The position numbers were made by a program, and so were the translations under genes. Of a DNA stretch of 38,672 bases, positions 3,919 through 32,825 are shown one piece after another; within the stretch, counting starts at the first letter, position 1; the number at the start of each line of letters is the position of its first letter. The stretch covers positions 1 to 38,672 of the IMG/VR virus record IMGVR_UViG_3300018080_000065; one strand, written 5' to 3'. The notes below the pieces were generated by a model, which saw only the letters and a program-made list of their open reading frames with translations, ran no database searches and was not told the DNA's origin. Source of the DNA: a virus.

Positions 3919-4537
3919 ACATATCCCTCCTTAGTTTTGCCATTTTACCATCTGGATGATGGAATACGATCCCCTCTCCTACTGAAACTATCGTTTTAAT
4001 CATCTTATTTGTAAAGAGAGACGGCAAGTATCTAAACCATTCTTTGATAGACTCATAAGTCTTAGGATATTTATTTTGACTCCAGGAGTTCCACTTAAAA
4101 CTTCTTTTTAGGTAATCGAAAGGAACAAAATAATGAGCGTCTAAATTATGAAGATTACCATTAATTGTTGGGCCGACAAGTTCCCCGAACACTCTTCCAG
4201 TAAAAGACTTAGCAATCCAACCATGCTTGATACAATTTATAATACCTTCTACAGACCTATAAGATTCTGTCTTCCAATTAGATGAGATACAAGGCTGCTC
4301 TATTAGTCTATTAGTTCTATTATCCACTGCTTGTAATAGCCCATCATCAAAGATGCAGCATATGTTTGTTCCATGAAGTTTATCTACAGCGATAACTCTT
4401 GGGTCTTCAAAAGCCCATTCATAACCTTCTTCTATCTCAGGTATAGCGAGATATTTACCGTCTATATTTTTTCTAACAAAAGGAGACTTTATCTTTGGGA
4501 AATTGATAATAGGATAATCTTTTTTGAATTCTTCCAT
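3902..4537 (-). CDS. RNA ligase (nucleotidyltransferase fold)
   Basis: A 211-residue ligase core. Motif I is VDKLHGTN with the predicted adenylated lysine K53. A motif III-like segment is GRVFGELVGPT (residues 114-124), motif IV is EGIVF (188-192), and motif V is MAKLRR with K201. This order is that of ATP-dependent RNA ligases of the Rnl2/Rnl5-like group, which join 3'-OH and 5'-phosphate RNA ends through an enzyme-AMP intermediate. The absence of a long C-terminal domain makes it compact. It shares one base with the upstream SpoVG-like gene and overlaps the downstream phosphoesterase by 17 nt. The genome also encodes a tRNA, so tRNA or mRNA repair is a plausible role. Confidence 0.85.
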   Translation of the reverse strand: MEEFKKDYPIINFPKIKSPFVRKNIDGKYLAIPEIEEGYEWAFEDPRVIAVDKLHGTNICCIFDDGLLQAVDNRTNRLIEQPCISSNWKTESYRSVEGIINCIKHGWIAKSFTGRVFGELVGPTINGNLHNLDAHYFVPFDYLKRSFKWNSWSQNKYPKTYESIKEWFRYLPSLFTNKMIKTIVSVGEGIVFHHPDGKMAKLRRDMFDFSN

Positions 4538-7171: not shown

Positions 7172-7310
7172 ATATTAATCTCCTTTTGAGGTTTGTTATA
7201 TTTATAGGCATATGTTAATCTCCTTTTTGTTTGGGGTTGATACATATGTTAATCTCCTTTTGAGGTTGGTTATATTTATAGACATATTGAGGTTAGTTAT
7301 ATTTATATAT
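7158..7310 (-). repeat. Tandem repeats duplicating the ribosome-binding site and start of the initiator gene
   Basis: Four imperfect direct repeats of about 27-42 bp. Read leftward, three of them contain AAAGGAGATTAA(T/C)ATATG, the initiator's Shine-Dalgarno and start codon, and most continue with TCTATAAATAT or a variant. ATGs fall at 7285, 7245, 7211 and 7171, and only the last opens the initiator frame. The upstream ATGs open short frames that end near or across the next start. The pattern looks like local amplification of a translation-initiation region and may tune initiator synthesis by competition or reinitiation. Confidence 0.8.
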
Positions 7311-7396
7311 GGGATTTCCTTAGTAGCTTTCGGTAAATCCATTGGGATAGCAATCAAATTAATTAGATTTAAGTTCACGTAGAGATGCGTGATCAT
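7202..7396 (-). CDS. Putative leader peptide (64 aa) upstream of the initiator
   Basis: A 64-residue frame starting at an ATG preceded by CGCGAGGACA, the same leader found before the portal and two other virion genes. It ends 30 nt before the initiator start and runs through the duplicated ribosome-binding sites, so its C-terminal half is encoded by the repeats. A longer frame starting at 7543 exists but lacks a ribosome-binding site and would cross a strong hairpin, so I prefer this start. By analogy with the tap peptide of IncFII plasmids, its translation could be coupled to that of the initiator. The composition is unremarkable (I, N, L, T), and a functional peptide is not evident. Confidence 0.4.
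   Translation of the reverse strand: MITHLYVNLNLINLIAIPMDLPKATKEIPYINITNLNMSINITNLKRRLTYVSTPNKKEINICL
7342..7369 (+). promoter_or_regulatory. Candidate promoter for an antisense RNA
   Basis: TTGGGA at 7342-7347 and TAGATT at 7364-7369, separated by 16 bp, give a plausible sigma70-type promoter on the plus strand. Initiation would fall near 7375, right before a run of three hairpins and a terminator. It points against the leftward initiator transcript. Confidence 0.35.
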
Positions 7397-7451
7397 TGTC
7401 CTCGCGGACAATTCCTTGGGGAAGTAGATGGCTCTACTTCCTCTTTTTTTT
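7375..7451 (+). ncRNA. Candidate antisense RNA against the initiator leader
   Basis: About 77 nt that fold into three consecutive hairpins on the plus strand: TCACG/CGTGA (7375-7379 with 7388-7392), ATTGTCC/GGACAAT with a TCGC loop (7395-7412), and GGAAGTAGA/TCTACTTCC with a TGGC loop (7420-7441). The last is followed by TCTTTTTTTT, a textbook intrinsic terminator. The terminator works only on the plus strand, yet no plus-strand gene precedes it. The second hairpin covers the complement of the CGCGAGGACA ribosome-binding site and ATG of the leader peptide, so pairing would block leader translation. This is the size and position of copy-control antisense RNAs. Confidence 0.55.
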
Positions 7452-29637: not shown

Positions 29638-30102
29638 TTATGTTAATTTAGAATGACATACTTTGCATAACCATATAATTTCGAGCTTCTTTGTATAATC
29701 ATGATGATGAGCTTCAAGTCTTCCTGAAGATCCGCAAACTTCACAAAGTTGCTTAGGAATAATTTTCCCTGATTTAACAGCACGTTCGACTGCTGAATGA
29801 GCATGTACTTTATCTCTATTTGCTTTTTTCCATTGTAATGTAAGTTCAGAATGTCTTTTCTTAACATGTTCTTGAGATCTCCAAATACGTTTACGTTCTG
29901 CAATTTTTTCACGATTATCTTCATGATATTTTGCATTTTGCATTTTACGTTTAAGAACCCAAATTGGATCTGTTTCACGACGTTTTCTATCCATTTCAAG
30001 ACGACAAAGCTTACAGATACCGTTGTATCCATCTTTTGTCTTCTTGTCTTTATAGAATCCGTCATAATCTTTTTCCTTTTTACATTTAGAACATTTCTTC
30101 AT
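29638..30102 (-). CDS. HNH homing endonuclease with N-terminal zinc ribbon (154 aa)
   Basis: A 154-residue nuclease. An N-terminal ribbon (C4, C7, C30, C33) is followed by a basic helix-rich linker and a C-terminal HNH motif: C120/C123 (CEVCG), LEAHHHDYTKK with H132/H133, and WLCKVCHSKL with C146, C149 and H150. It is free-standing between the capsid and decoration genes, in their orientation, with a GGAGG site before its ATG. HNH genes of this type are mobile and often cut homologous genomes at the matching intergenic site. It is the only apparent non-structural gene between these two head genes. Confidence 0.85.
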   Translation of the reverse strand: MKKCSKCKKEKDYDGFYKDKKTKDGYNGICKLCRLEMDRKRRETDPIWVLKRKMQNAKYHEDNREKIAERKRIWRSQEHVKKRHSELTLQWKKANRDKVHAHSAVERAVKSGKIIPKQLCEVCGSSGRLEAHHHDYTKKLEIIWLCKVCHSKLT

Positions 30103-30192: not shown

Positions 30193-30823
30193 TTACGAAT
30201 GAGTTGCCATTAAATTTAACATGAAGGCATCATTTAAAATACGAGCTACGAAGGGGTGCGACCAACCCACGCTTCCTCTTTGATGTAAAGGATCAGCGCT
30301 TCCACCTGATCCAAGTGGTTCTACATAGAAATCACCTGTTTCAGATTTTAGATGAACAACTGCATATGCTTCTTTACCAACAATCACATTATTGTATACT
30401 GGTGTAGCTGCTGCGCTTACAGAACCTGCTGATGTATATAACCATCTAACGTTGCCTGTAGAGCCCCATTCTGCATCTAGAACAGTTTGTTGTGACGCGT
30501 AGTTACTTGAGTTAACAAAGTTAGCGCAAGCTTCTAGATCATCTAATAAATCAGTATCCATATACCCCCAGAATGCAGGTCTTACTGGGCTAGTTGCATA
30601 AGCATTAGTACCAGTTACTACTTCTGAGATCATTTCAGCATCATTACCTAATAAAGTTTTAACTGCTGCATCAATATCAGCTTTAGTTAATTCAGTTGGT
30701 GTTTCACCGTTAATACCATTACTACACAGTAGTACAGAAGATGTACTAGCAAGTACGTCTCTTGTTACTTCGTCCATTGTTTGTGCTAAGTTCTGCGATA
30801 ATAATCTTGCAGATTCGTTTAAG
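30193..30823 (-). CDS. Major capsid protein, exon 4
   Basis: The last exon: one base completing a valine codon, then 209 codons and a stop. It begins at CTTAAACGAATC after the G that ends intron 3. An apparent longer frame reaching back to 31065 translates intron sequence and has no family resemblance there, which is why the exon boundary is placed here. It holds most of the shell domain and the conserved C-terminus. Confidence 0.88.
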
Positions 30824-32825
30824 CATTCTGTTACTTTCGGCTTAGCTACGCCTACTGACCATATTACTATGGCGGGGAAAACTCTTCGGTTCTCCCTCTC
30901 TTCCTTTACAGAAGAGGTCAGACTGTCGCTTCCCATTCGGGTTTTCTCGCTCAGTCGTTTAGCGTGGTATTTAATATTGTTTTCATTTCTTAAAATATCT
31001 AACAATTGCATGGAAGTACTTGAATGGATTCTTAAAACATTTGGAGGCAGAATAACTAAATACAATAAAAATCGATTGGAAATGAGAGGAACGATTTCTC
31101 GAACAGGAAGTTGCGGACCTATTAAACAGCCTCCACATATCCTTGAAGTACGAGAAAAACCTCGTCATCAAATGACTCAACCTAACTCTAGATTTAAGAA
31201 ACATACTTATACTAACCATTTTAAATAACCTTCGCCCATGTTGCCATATTACGCAGCTTCCTGAGTAACGTAGGTGTCCATGTCAATCAGAGAAAATTTA
31301 TACAGAGCCTTTACATTAACCCTGTCTTCGCTTCCTGTTACTTTCAGTTTTTACACCTACTGACCATATTACTATGGCGGGGAAAGTTCTTCGACTCTCC
31401 CTCCAACTCTTTCGTAGCTGGATCAGACTATCGCATCTCCTATAAAGGAGCCCTTTCGTTTAGTCGTTTATCGTCCCCGAGGGGTTCGACCTTGTCGCCA
31501 CCGTCTTTACGCTGCGGCTTCCAAGCAATTAGAAAAGGTTTTATAACCGCCTAAGTATGAAACGGTTAACTGAACTTGATTAGTAATTGTCACGAAATTC
31601 TTTTTGTTACTACTCTTTCGAGCGACCAGTAATTTCTTCTGGTTCCTATTATTACTAATAGGTTCGGACTATATCTTACACGTTTATTAAACATGTGATT
31701 CCTCTTGTTTATTCAATCGACTATCATGATAGCATTTAGAGCTACAAAATTTACGTATTTTTCTATGTCTATATTCAACATCAAACTCTTTGCCACAATG
31801 GTTGCAGTTTAAAGTAAAGTTTTCACCTCTATCTGCTCTTGGTCTCTGTCCATCATCTTTTAATTTATATTCCATTGAAGGATGAATATATGGTCTAATT
31901 AAATCATAAAATGGTTTTCTGTCTGATCTTCTTAGTCTCATACAAAAATATTCACCATGTCTATTGCATCTCCATTGCAATCCAAATTTTTTCTGAAGCA
32001 TACGACACATCATTTCTACTTCAGTTTTGGAATAAGCATAAGTATAAATAACAGGAACTAAAAAATTATCATTTTGATATAAGGTACCATCATCTTGATA
32101 CCATAATGCTAATCCTAATGGCGTTAAACATTTCATTATATGTTCATCAACTGTACGTCGTTTGTCGAAATACAAATGATCCATTAATTTTGTATAAAAT
32201 GGATGTGATTTTGTTTGCATCTTATAATTTTGAAATACTTTACCATCTATGGTAGAAGATCCCTCTTTACTCCAACATGATGTTAGATGTTCTAGCATTT
32301 GTATTTTGTACATCATATATTCTTTTTGTTTTGTGCAGTGAGTCATGCTATATTGAGCATTTATTCCTCCTTTCGGTATTCTTAGATGCCCATCTCCTAA
32401 ACACATCCCTATTACTGCTCCTTTAAACTCTAATCGATTTTTAAACATTTAGTCTCTACACCTTCCTTTACGGATTGGTTCGGGATTGTCCTTTGCGGAG
32501 TTTCCCCGAATTCAGAATCATTTTACTACGGCAATTTCTAAGCTGCAAAGCTTAAATCACTTTTACCGTAAAAGCTGACACGAGCCTTGATATCTGTAGC
32601 AGAAAGAGGTGCTCCTGGAGGAGAACGTCCATCCACTAAAGGAATAGGCACTGTGTCAAGTTTTGAATATCTTCTAAATACAATGGTGTCTCCATTTTTT
32701 TCTGGCAGAATTCTACGTTGCGCAAATTTCGTATGAATTAGCGTAGGATACGCTGTCATCAATAATAAACGATCATAGTATTCCCGAACCGCTGGAGGCA
32801 ACACTGTTGTTGTTGTCATTGTCAT
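30193..32825 (-). CDS. Major capsid protein, N4-gp56 family, split by three group I introns
   Basis: The mature frame is a join of 32565-32825, 31562-31599, 31319-31330 and 30193-30823 (261+38+12+631 = 942 nt, 313 residues). Exon 1 carries the N4-gp56 N-terminal pattern (VREYYDRLLLM, KFAQRRILPEKNGDTIVFRR, PLVDGRSPPG). Splicing gives the continuous core FYG-NFVTITNQVQLT-V-EDR-V-LNESARLLSQN, the expected YG..V.ITDQV.LT..D.VL.E...LL.QN signature of the family. Exon 4 continues with DEVTRDVLASTSSVLLCSNG and ends RILNDAFMLNL. The protein builds the icosahedral shell on the scaffold encoded just upstream. Unspliced RNA would yield only a 95-residue fragment, so splicing is essential for virion production. 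Confidence 0.9.
30824..31318 (-). ncRNA. Group I intron 3 in the capsid gene (495 nt)
   Basis: The predicted 5' splice site follows CAGGGT. P1 pairs CAGGGTT with the guide GGCTCTG, with a U.G wobble at the cut. P4/P5-like elements (GGAAGCTGCGTAA and GGGCGAAGG) follow, then a roughly 260-nt insert. P7 is GACTG/CAGTC (near 30950 and 30922), and a 3' domain is shared with intron 2, including a 30-base identical block (30851-30880). It ends AGAATG before exon 4. The insert contains the antisense relic of a LAGLIDADG gene. Confidence 0.8.
30961..31228 (+). pseudogene. Decayed LAGLIDADG homing endonuclease, antisense inside intron 3
   Basis: On the plus strand this segment reads LKISNNCMEVLEWILKTFGG then RITKYNKNRLEMRG and ILEVREKPRHQM. 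This is the pattern I associate with the middle of LAGLIDADG enzymes (...ISNT..EVLEWI...FGG.I..., later PYL.VKK.QA). The N-terminal LAGLIDADG helix is missing: upstream sequence in this frame is the conserved intron core. The frame is open to a stop at 31226-31228, but the second motif is absent. I read it as a truncated remnant inserted opposite to the intron. A chance open frame antisense to structured RNA is the alternative. Confidence 0.5.
31319..31330 (-). other. Twelve-nucleotide capsid micro-exon (exon 3)
   Basis: CGAAGACAGGGT read leftward. Its first base completes a valine codon begun in exon 2, then GAA GAC AGG encode EDR, and GT is completed by the C of exon 4. It is bounded by G of intron 2 on one side and a GT/T 5' splice site on the other, the same boundary sequence as exon 2/intron 2. 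It restores the family core LTV-EDR-VLNE. Without it the reading frame is kept but the conserved acidic residues are lost. Confidence 0.8.
31331..31561 (-). ncRNA. Group I intron 2 in the capsid gene (231 nt)
   Basis: A compact intron without an open frame. P1 pairs AACCGTTT with the guide AGGCGGTT, with U.G at the cut after GT. A TAATTGCTTGGAAGCCGC core segment is followed by P7 arms GACTA (near 31464) and TAGTC (near 31429), and a P8 hairpin CTCC/GGAG lies between them. The 3' domain is homologous to that of intron 3 and includes the identical block at 31356-31385. It ends AGGAAG before the micro-exon. The P7 pair is A-U here and G-C in intron 3, a compensatory change. Confidence 0.85.
31562..31599 (-). 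other. Major capsid protein, exon 2 (38 nt)
   Basis: Encodes NFVTITNQVQLT plus the first two bases of a valine codon. It follows the terminal G of intron 1 and ends ACCGT at the intron 2 splice site. The residues fit between the YG that ends exon 1 and the EDR micro-exon in the N4-gp56 pattern. Confidence 0.87.
31600..32564 (-). ncRNA. Group I intron 1 in the capsid gene (965 nt) carrying an endonuclease gene
   Basis: P1 pairs TACGGT with the guide GCCGTA, with U.G at the cut. The core is classic group I: CGGGGAAACTCCG and GACAATCCCGAACCAA, then P7 5' strand in GTGTAGAGACTA (32450-32460). The 3' strand is AAGATATAGTCC (31666-31677), a perfect match to the consensus S element. A LAGLIDADG gene fills the loop between the P7 strands, its ATG four bases after GACTA. 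The intron ends with the G at 31600 before AATTTCGTG. This is the best-defined of the three introns. Confidence 0.92.
31687..32448 (-). CDS. LAGLIDADG homing endonuclease with C-terminal zinc ribbon, intron-encoded
   Basis: A 253-residue intron-encoded nuclease. The first LAGLIDADG-like helix is AVIGMCLGDGHL (residues 11-22) and the second LGLALWYQDDGTL (111-123), so a monomeric double-motif enzyme with one acidic residue per motif for catalysis. It resembles the LAGLIDADG_2 type. Residues 212-245 add a zinc ribbon (CNHC at 215-218, CSSKC at 235-239) like the repeats in the HNH protein at 34217, likely for DNA targeting. The enzyme should cut intron-less capsid genes at the exon 1/exon 2 junction and so spread the intron. 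It lies wholly in the P8 loop region. Confidence 0.92.
   Translation of the reverse strand: MFKNRLEFKGAVIGMCLGDGHLRIPKGGINAQYSMTHCTKQKEYMMYKIQMLEHLTSCWSKEGSSTIDGKVFQNYKMQTKSHPFYTKLMDHLYFDKRRTVDEHIMKCLTPLGLALWYQDDGTLYQNDNFLVPVIYTYAYSKTEVEMMCRMLQKKFGLQWRCNRHGEYFCMRLRRSDRKPFYDLIRPYIHPSMEYKLKDDGQRPRADRGENFTLNCNHCGKEFDVEYRHRKIRKFCSSKCYHDSRLNKQEESHV
32565..32825 (-). CDS. Major capsid protein, exon 1
   Basis: Eighty-seven codons from ATG to GGT. The N-terminus is threonine-rich (MTMTTTTVLPPAVREYYDRL). The exon ends VSFYG, and reading on into the intron gives eight more unrelated residues before a stop at 32538-32540, so the frame visible without splicing is artificially 95 residues long. An AGGAG site lies about nine bases before the ATG. 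Confidence 0.9.

Follow-up and report, generated by a model that had tools for sequence, protein, structure and literature searches.

Introduction

Short exons between two group I introns have been described in several settings. According to PMC10136302, in which Landthaler and Shub 1999 is cited, orf142 of the Staphylococcus phage Twort contains three group I introns and a 23-nucleotide (nt) exon that is skipped or kept, and the short exons reported earlier between group I introns of phages and bacteria measure 23 and 34 nt. In placozoan mitochondrial cox1, RNA-seq showed that a single nucleotide forms the exon separating a pair of group I introns (PMC5436844). The capsid intron of mycobacteriophage LittleE carries a bottom-strand LAGLIDADG frame and is spliced in vivo (PMC3706429). 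Here, we describe the N4-gp56 major capsid protein gene of the virus record IMGVR_UViG_3300018080_000065, whose 38,672 nt are called the window below. This single gene occupies positions 32825-30193 of the minus strand and is divided by three introns into four exons, the third of which has 12 nt.

The arrangement is similar to Twort orf142 (AF132670 was used for sequence comparison) in that three group I introns lie in a phage structural gene and the similar introns 2 and 3 flank a short exon. It differs in the short exon (12 nt here, 23 nt in Twort) and in the gene, which is a capsid gene here and encodes an Orf8-like virion structural protein in Twort; moreover, splicing and skipping were demonstrated experimentally for Twort, whereas splicing is predicted for the present gene. 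Intron-less relatives exist as for LittleE, which has one intron, with splicing shown by reverse transcription PCR and the capsid protein examined in virions (PMC3706429). Lactococcus phage Tuc2009 (NC_002703) likewise has a group I intron in its major head protein gene, mp4; this is a single intron with an HNH endonuclease, and 44 nt close to its 5' end share 84% identity with our intron 2. As in placozoan cox1, a micro-exon was isolated by a second group I intron inserting beside the first, the cox1 case differing by its 1-nt length, group IB introns and mitochondrial location (PMC5436844). Arrangements of this kind are known, and the locus represents a shorter version from a phage, within a capsid gene family that is a hotspot of introns. 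As far as the literature was searched, no exon shorter than its third has been proposed to lie between a pair of group I introns outside mitochondria. Since relatives carry the flanking introns separately, the origin of this micro-exon by stacking of mobile introns is directly readable.

Exon-Intron Structure of the Capsid Gene

The gene is composed of the following parts, where L numbers denote loci of relatives and R1 a model of intron cores, both described below.

32565-32825, minus strand: exon 1, 261 nt (relatives, TIGR04387)
31600-32564, minus strand: intron 1, group I, 965 nt (P-Q-R-S strings, homologous intron in L085)
31562-31599, minus strand: exon 2, 38 nt (read-through in uninterrupted relatives)
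31331-31561, minus strand: intron 2, 231 nt, no open reading frame (ORF), complete group I core (R1, covariation, RF00028)
31319-31330, minus strand: exon 3, the 12-nt micro-exon CGAAGACAGGGT (continuous with exon 4 in L085 and with exon 2 in L083)
30824-31318, minus strand: intron 3, group I of the intron 2 family, 495 nt (sequence likeness, covariation, R1)
30193-30823, minus strand: exon 4, 631 nt including the stop (relatives)

The joined exons give 942 nt that encode 313 amino acids and a stop. This product matched the N4-gp56 major capsid family TIGR04387 of NCBIfam over residues 4-306 with 213.4 bits (E = 4.7e-63; curated cut-off, 60 bits), and it also matched Pfam PF25209. No exon shows frame damage, and all are conserved at the protein level. 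The base before every 5' cut is T, and the last base of every intron is G. An original prediction, made from the sequence of this stretch, had proposed a capsid frame in four pieces that rejoin in frame at 942 nt, with group I boundary rules at all six ends and complementary guides for the 5' cuts, and its exons, end bases and guides were all recovered here. An AlphaFold2 prediction of the capsid protein from a 24-row alignment had a confidence (pLDDT) of 34 and was not used.

Relatives With and Without the Introns

Among 2.9 million viral contigs scanned, 80 capsid relatives were identified, the closest of which is 97% identical across its whole length. None of the 80 is interrupted at any of the three sites, and their residues across the junctions are those of the predicted spliced product (DIKARVSFYGNFVTITNQVQLTVEDRVLNESARLL), including the relatives of up to 97% identity. 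V100, E101, and D102, which fall in the micro-exon region, are invariant in 80/80, and R103 is present in 73/80. Some of the 80 genes have interruptions at other places, near residue 35 (L015, L082), residue 23 (L039, L064), and residue 16 (L011, L016, L017).

Relatives with part of the introns were located by pattern scans for intron ends, which gave 61 loci. L083 has a single intron exactly at site 3, and its exons 1 to 3 form one piece. In L085 and L086, only sites 1 and 2 hold introns; EDRVLNES is unbroken there, the micro-exon being continuous with exon 4. Further introns at site 3 were found in the close relatives L103, L105, L107, L109, L115, L120, L125, L130, L133, L139, L142, and L143, and no site-2 intron without a site-1 intron was seen among the relatives found. 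These intron subsets, together with the read-through, indicate that the 12 nt are exonic and coding and that the introns are independent insertions, gained or lost separately. All junctions that had been proposed from the window were thereby reproduced in natural genes. A 15-nt exon 3 (AAGCGAAGACAGGGT), which likewise follows a G, was rejected because it adds a serine present in no relative.

The exon flanks of site 3, GACAGGGT upstream and CTTAAA downstream, are present in 13/13 close carriers (window included) whose two flanks were read and in 0/80 uninterrupted genes; these counts are descriptive, as the carrier rows are related and not independent. Shared flanks are expected from flank co-conversion or from guide constraint. 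In the exons, only a weak signal of co-conversion was obtained, and it was given no weight. Across the relatives, occupied capsid sites lie near residues 16, 23, 35, 88, 104, and 290.

Group I Core of Introns 2 and 3

The final 71 nt of introns 2 and 3 are 86% identical, and both introns align along their cores with 17 others. Over these 19 introns, 96.9% of the cells are paired in the P3/P7 helices that form the group I pseudoknot, in P8, P9, and the peripheral stems, and this pairing fell to 34-51% when the partners were slid as a control. Both sides have changed in 27/34 pairs. Among the core helices, P3 is 99% paired with 7/7 pairs covarying, P7 and P8 are 100% paired, and P9 is 99% paired. 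P1 of introns 2 and 3 has 7/7 pairs each with U.G at position -1 of the 5' splice site, and omega-G is intact in both. These observations support the assignment of introns 2 and 3 to one family of group I introns.

The model R1, built from the trimmed 19-intron core alignment, scored 193.7 bits on intron 2 and 169.7 bits on intron 3, both of which belong to its training set. In the 61 loci from the pattern scans it matched 78 places, and in the first 80 relatives it matched 5. Outside the training set, R1 weakly detected the annotated head-gene group I intron of phage Tuc2009 (E = 0.0027), and it gave three weak places on Twort orf142 (E from 0.002 to 0.05).

Up to five successive R1 hits per capsid locus were observed in L117/L123, L102/L124, L115, and L109, some of which may stem from a single intron that an endonuclease gene divides in two. 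A 28-bit R1 hit was also obtained at 7179-7405 (minus strand) of L091, where no capsid gene was recognised; this may be a member of the family that lies in a different gene.

Intron 1

Intron 1 is of another kind than introns 2 and 3, being a td/IA-type group I intron by its P-Q-R-S strings AATTCGGGGAAACTCC, GGACAATCCCGA, GTAGAGACTAAATG, and AAGATATAGTCC. Its homologue at the same site in L085 is 85% identical over 958 nt, and a fragment at 31647-31677 was detected by RF00028, the group I model of Rfam (E = 2.2e-4). Its guide was located by sequence:

32527-32532, minus strand: intron 1 guide GCCGTA, pairing with the exon 1 end TACGGT

Upstream of this guide, GAAATT can pair with the exon 2 start AATTTC to form a P10 of 6 base pairs (bp). 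The P-Q-R-S strings, P1 with U.G, P10, and omega-G are hence all readable in the sequence of intron 1.

In distant capsid genes, the site of intron 1, after Tyr-Gly, is occupied by shorter intervening sequences of 29-53 nt in the form TACGGT/AAA...GTGCCGTA...TG/AC (slashes at the boundaries). They were found in L132, L104 (=L175), L099, L247, L122, L154 (=L218), L164 (=L196), L191, L208 (=L253), and L255 by searches of which the second pattern itself demanded TGAC. They have a P1-like hairpin and a final G with no catalytic core, and in-frame stops occur in those that were read. Longer introns with the same P1 lie at the same site in L173, L192, L195, L240, and L243. Nearly every locus with a short insert has at least one R1-type hit elsewhere (weak in L164/L196); none was found in L175, a short piece. 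The inserts may be coreless introns spliced in trans, or they may be passed by translational bypass or re-initiation.

Geometry and Proposed Origin of the Micro-Exon

The pairing elements around exon 3 are as follows.

31545-31550, minus strand: intron 2 guide GCGGTT, pairing with the exon 2 end AACCGT
31555-31551, minus strand: intron 2 P10 strand CTTAG, pairing 4/5 with exon 3 nt 1-5 (CGAAG)
31302-31308, minus strand: intron 3 guide GCTCTGT, pairing 7/7 with exon 3 ACAGGGT

Intron 3 P1 occupies nt 6-12 of the micro-exon (ACAGGGU), which agrees with the earlier proposal that the P1 of intron 3 uses exon bases close to the 3' splice site of intron 2, and nt 1-5 stay unpaired when the segment is folded by itself. 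Intron 2 P10 on nt 1-5 and intron 3 P1 on nt 6-12 thus abut with zero overlap.

We propose that three mobile group I introns accumulated one after another in the major capsid gene. Introns 2 and 3, members of one family with different guides, would recognise AACCGT and ACAGGGT; as these target sites lay 12 bp apart by chance, the stretch between them would have become a 12-nt exon. Each intron would fold its own core, use its own P1 with U.G at the 5' cut, and excise itself with an exogenous G, so that exons 1 to 4 would be ligated to encode an ordinary 313-residue capsid protein. Splicing of intron 2 first or intron 3 first is equally conceivable because each half-spliced state corresponds to a natural gene arrangement, L083-like or L085-like. 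The bases of the micro-exon would just suffice for the P10 of intron 2 and the P1 of intron 3, suggesting a testable lower limit of 5 + 7 nt for such exons, which must accommodate the P10 of one ribozyme and the P1 of the following one.

Other short exons were noted in the relatives. L122 has a 15-nt exon ACGTATATCATCCTT at about 986-1000, provided that the preceding 53-nt sequence is removed, and L173 has a 26-nt exon ACATGGGTAGAAATGAATGAGCAGGT at 4345-4370 between two full group I introns.

Alternative Explanations

A capsid gene with three successively inserted mobile group I introns, spliced to give the 313-residue protein, is very probably the correct explanation. Four points weigh against it. 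The splicing and its junctions are deduced from DNA; the endonuclease inserts were trimmed by hand for the core alignment; the combination of three introns with a 12-nt exon was found in one metagenomic contig only; and RF00028 at its gathering score (50) detected no group I intron, neither in the window nor among 11 relatives. The Infernal search with RF00028, which had been suggested as a check in the original prediction, would therefore have seemed negative. This miss was not taken as a negative result because the comparison with relatives and the covariation were positive. The gathering score is an operational cut-off and not a structural feature; the structural features of introns 2 and 3 are present, and intron 2 was matched by RF00028 with 26.6 bits (E = 1.5e-6). 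An intron-rich capsid gene family is hence missed by RF00028 at its gathering score.

The micro-exon might instead be an alternative exon, for which the two sister ribozymes compete, giving both VEDRV inclusion and in-frame skipping. We regard this as very unlikely; if true, the phage would make two capsid isoforms, whose ratio would be important to it. That exon 3 is mostly or always skipped, the 5' site of intron 2 being joined to the 3' site of intron 3 to give an in-frame protein minus EDRV, is very unlikely. The 12 nt preserve the frame, introns 2 and 3 have their 3' parts in common, and the tandem group I introns of Twort and Coxiella skip a 23-nt or 34-nt exon (PMC10136302). However, V100, E101, and D102 are kept in every uninterrupted relative, exon 3 retains its pairing with both introns, and the P10 of intron 2 is, by hand count, somewhat better with exon 3 (4/5) than with exon 4 (3/6).

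A dead capsid gene, whose introns no longer splice in a phage that is defective or relies on another capsid gene, is likewise very unlikely: the decayed endonuclease of intron 3 and the low RF00028 scores would fit it, but the exons are undamaged and conserved as protein, P1, P3, P7, and omega-G of introns 2 and 3 are intact, and portal and terminase genes lie nearby; a second capsid gene was not searched for in the window. Equally improbable is an assembly chimera of an intron 1+2 allele with an intron 3 allele, since exon identity shows no sharp switch or break at the intron 3 site (whole-gene identity of the window is 82% to L085, 82% to L003, and 76% to L083) and the features of exon 3 suit both neighbouring introns, even though both allele types occur separately in nature and the combination is known from a single contig.

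Endonucleases and Neighbouring Features

Two endonuclease frames were assigned within the introns.

31687-32448, minus strand: intron 1 LAGLIDADG_2 homing endonuclease ORF, sense, 253 amino acids, intact (Pfam PF03161, E = 2.7e-35)
30989-31228, plus strand: antisense LAGLIDADG_1 remnant in intron 3, within the ORF 30869-31228 of the plus strand (intact ORFs of L103, L105, L115, L130, and L139)

The intron 1 ORF scored 122 bits against Pfam LAGLIDADG_2 (cut-off 25) and is predicted to encode an endonuclease. The remnant in intron 3, which the original prediction had not included, keeps the C-terminal part, its N-terminal LAGLIDADG motif and an internal stretch being deleted, and this antisense ORF had no Pfam or PHROG match. 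The motif is present in the antisense ORFs of L103, whose intact copy has a Pfam match, and of other relatives. At site 3, the introns that measure about 800 nt contain a LAGLIDADG_1 ORF opposite to the capsid strand, which is intact in most. Such opposite-strand ORFs were observed in L103, L105, L115, L120, L130, L139, L142, and L084; a frame break divides the one in L142.

The endonucleases encoded in the introns presumably drive homing. Nearly identical targets, GACAGGCT and GACAGGGT, are used by related introns that sit at residue 23 (L039, L064) and at site 3, a finding that suggests that introns moved between look-alike sites within the capsid gene.

Immediately downstream of the capsid gene, a free-standing endonuclease gene was found at 29638-30102 of the window (minus strand; PHROG 2340, E = 6.8e-34). 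A weak host hint comes from L146 (JAAKFB010000001.1), a contig of 36 kb that was binned with a metagenome-assembled genome of Chlamydiae and has a capsid gene of 81% identity.
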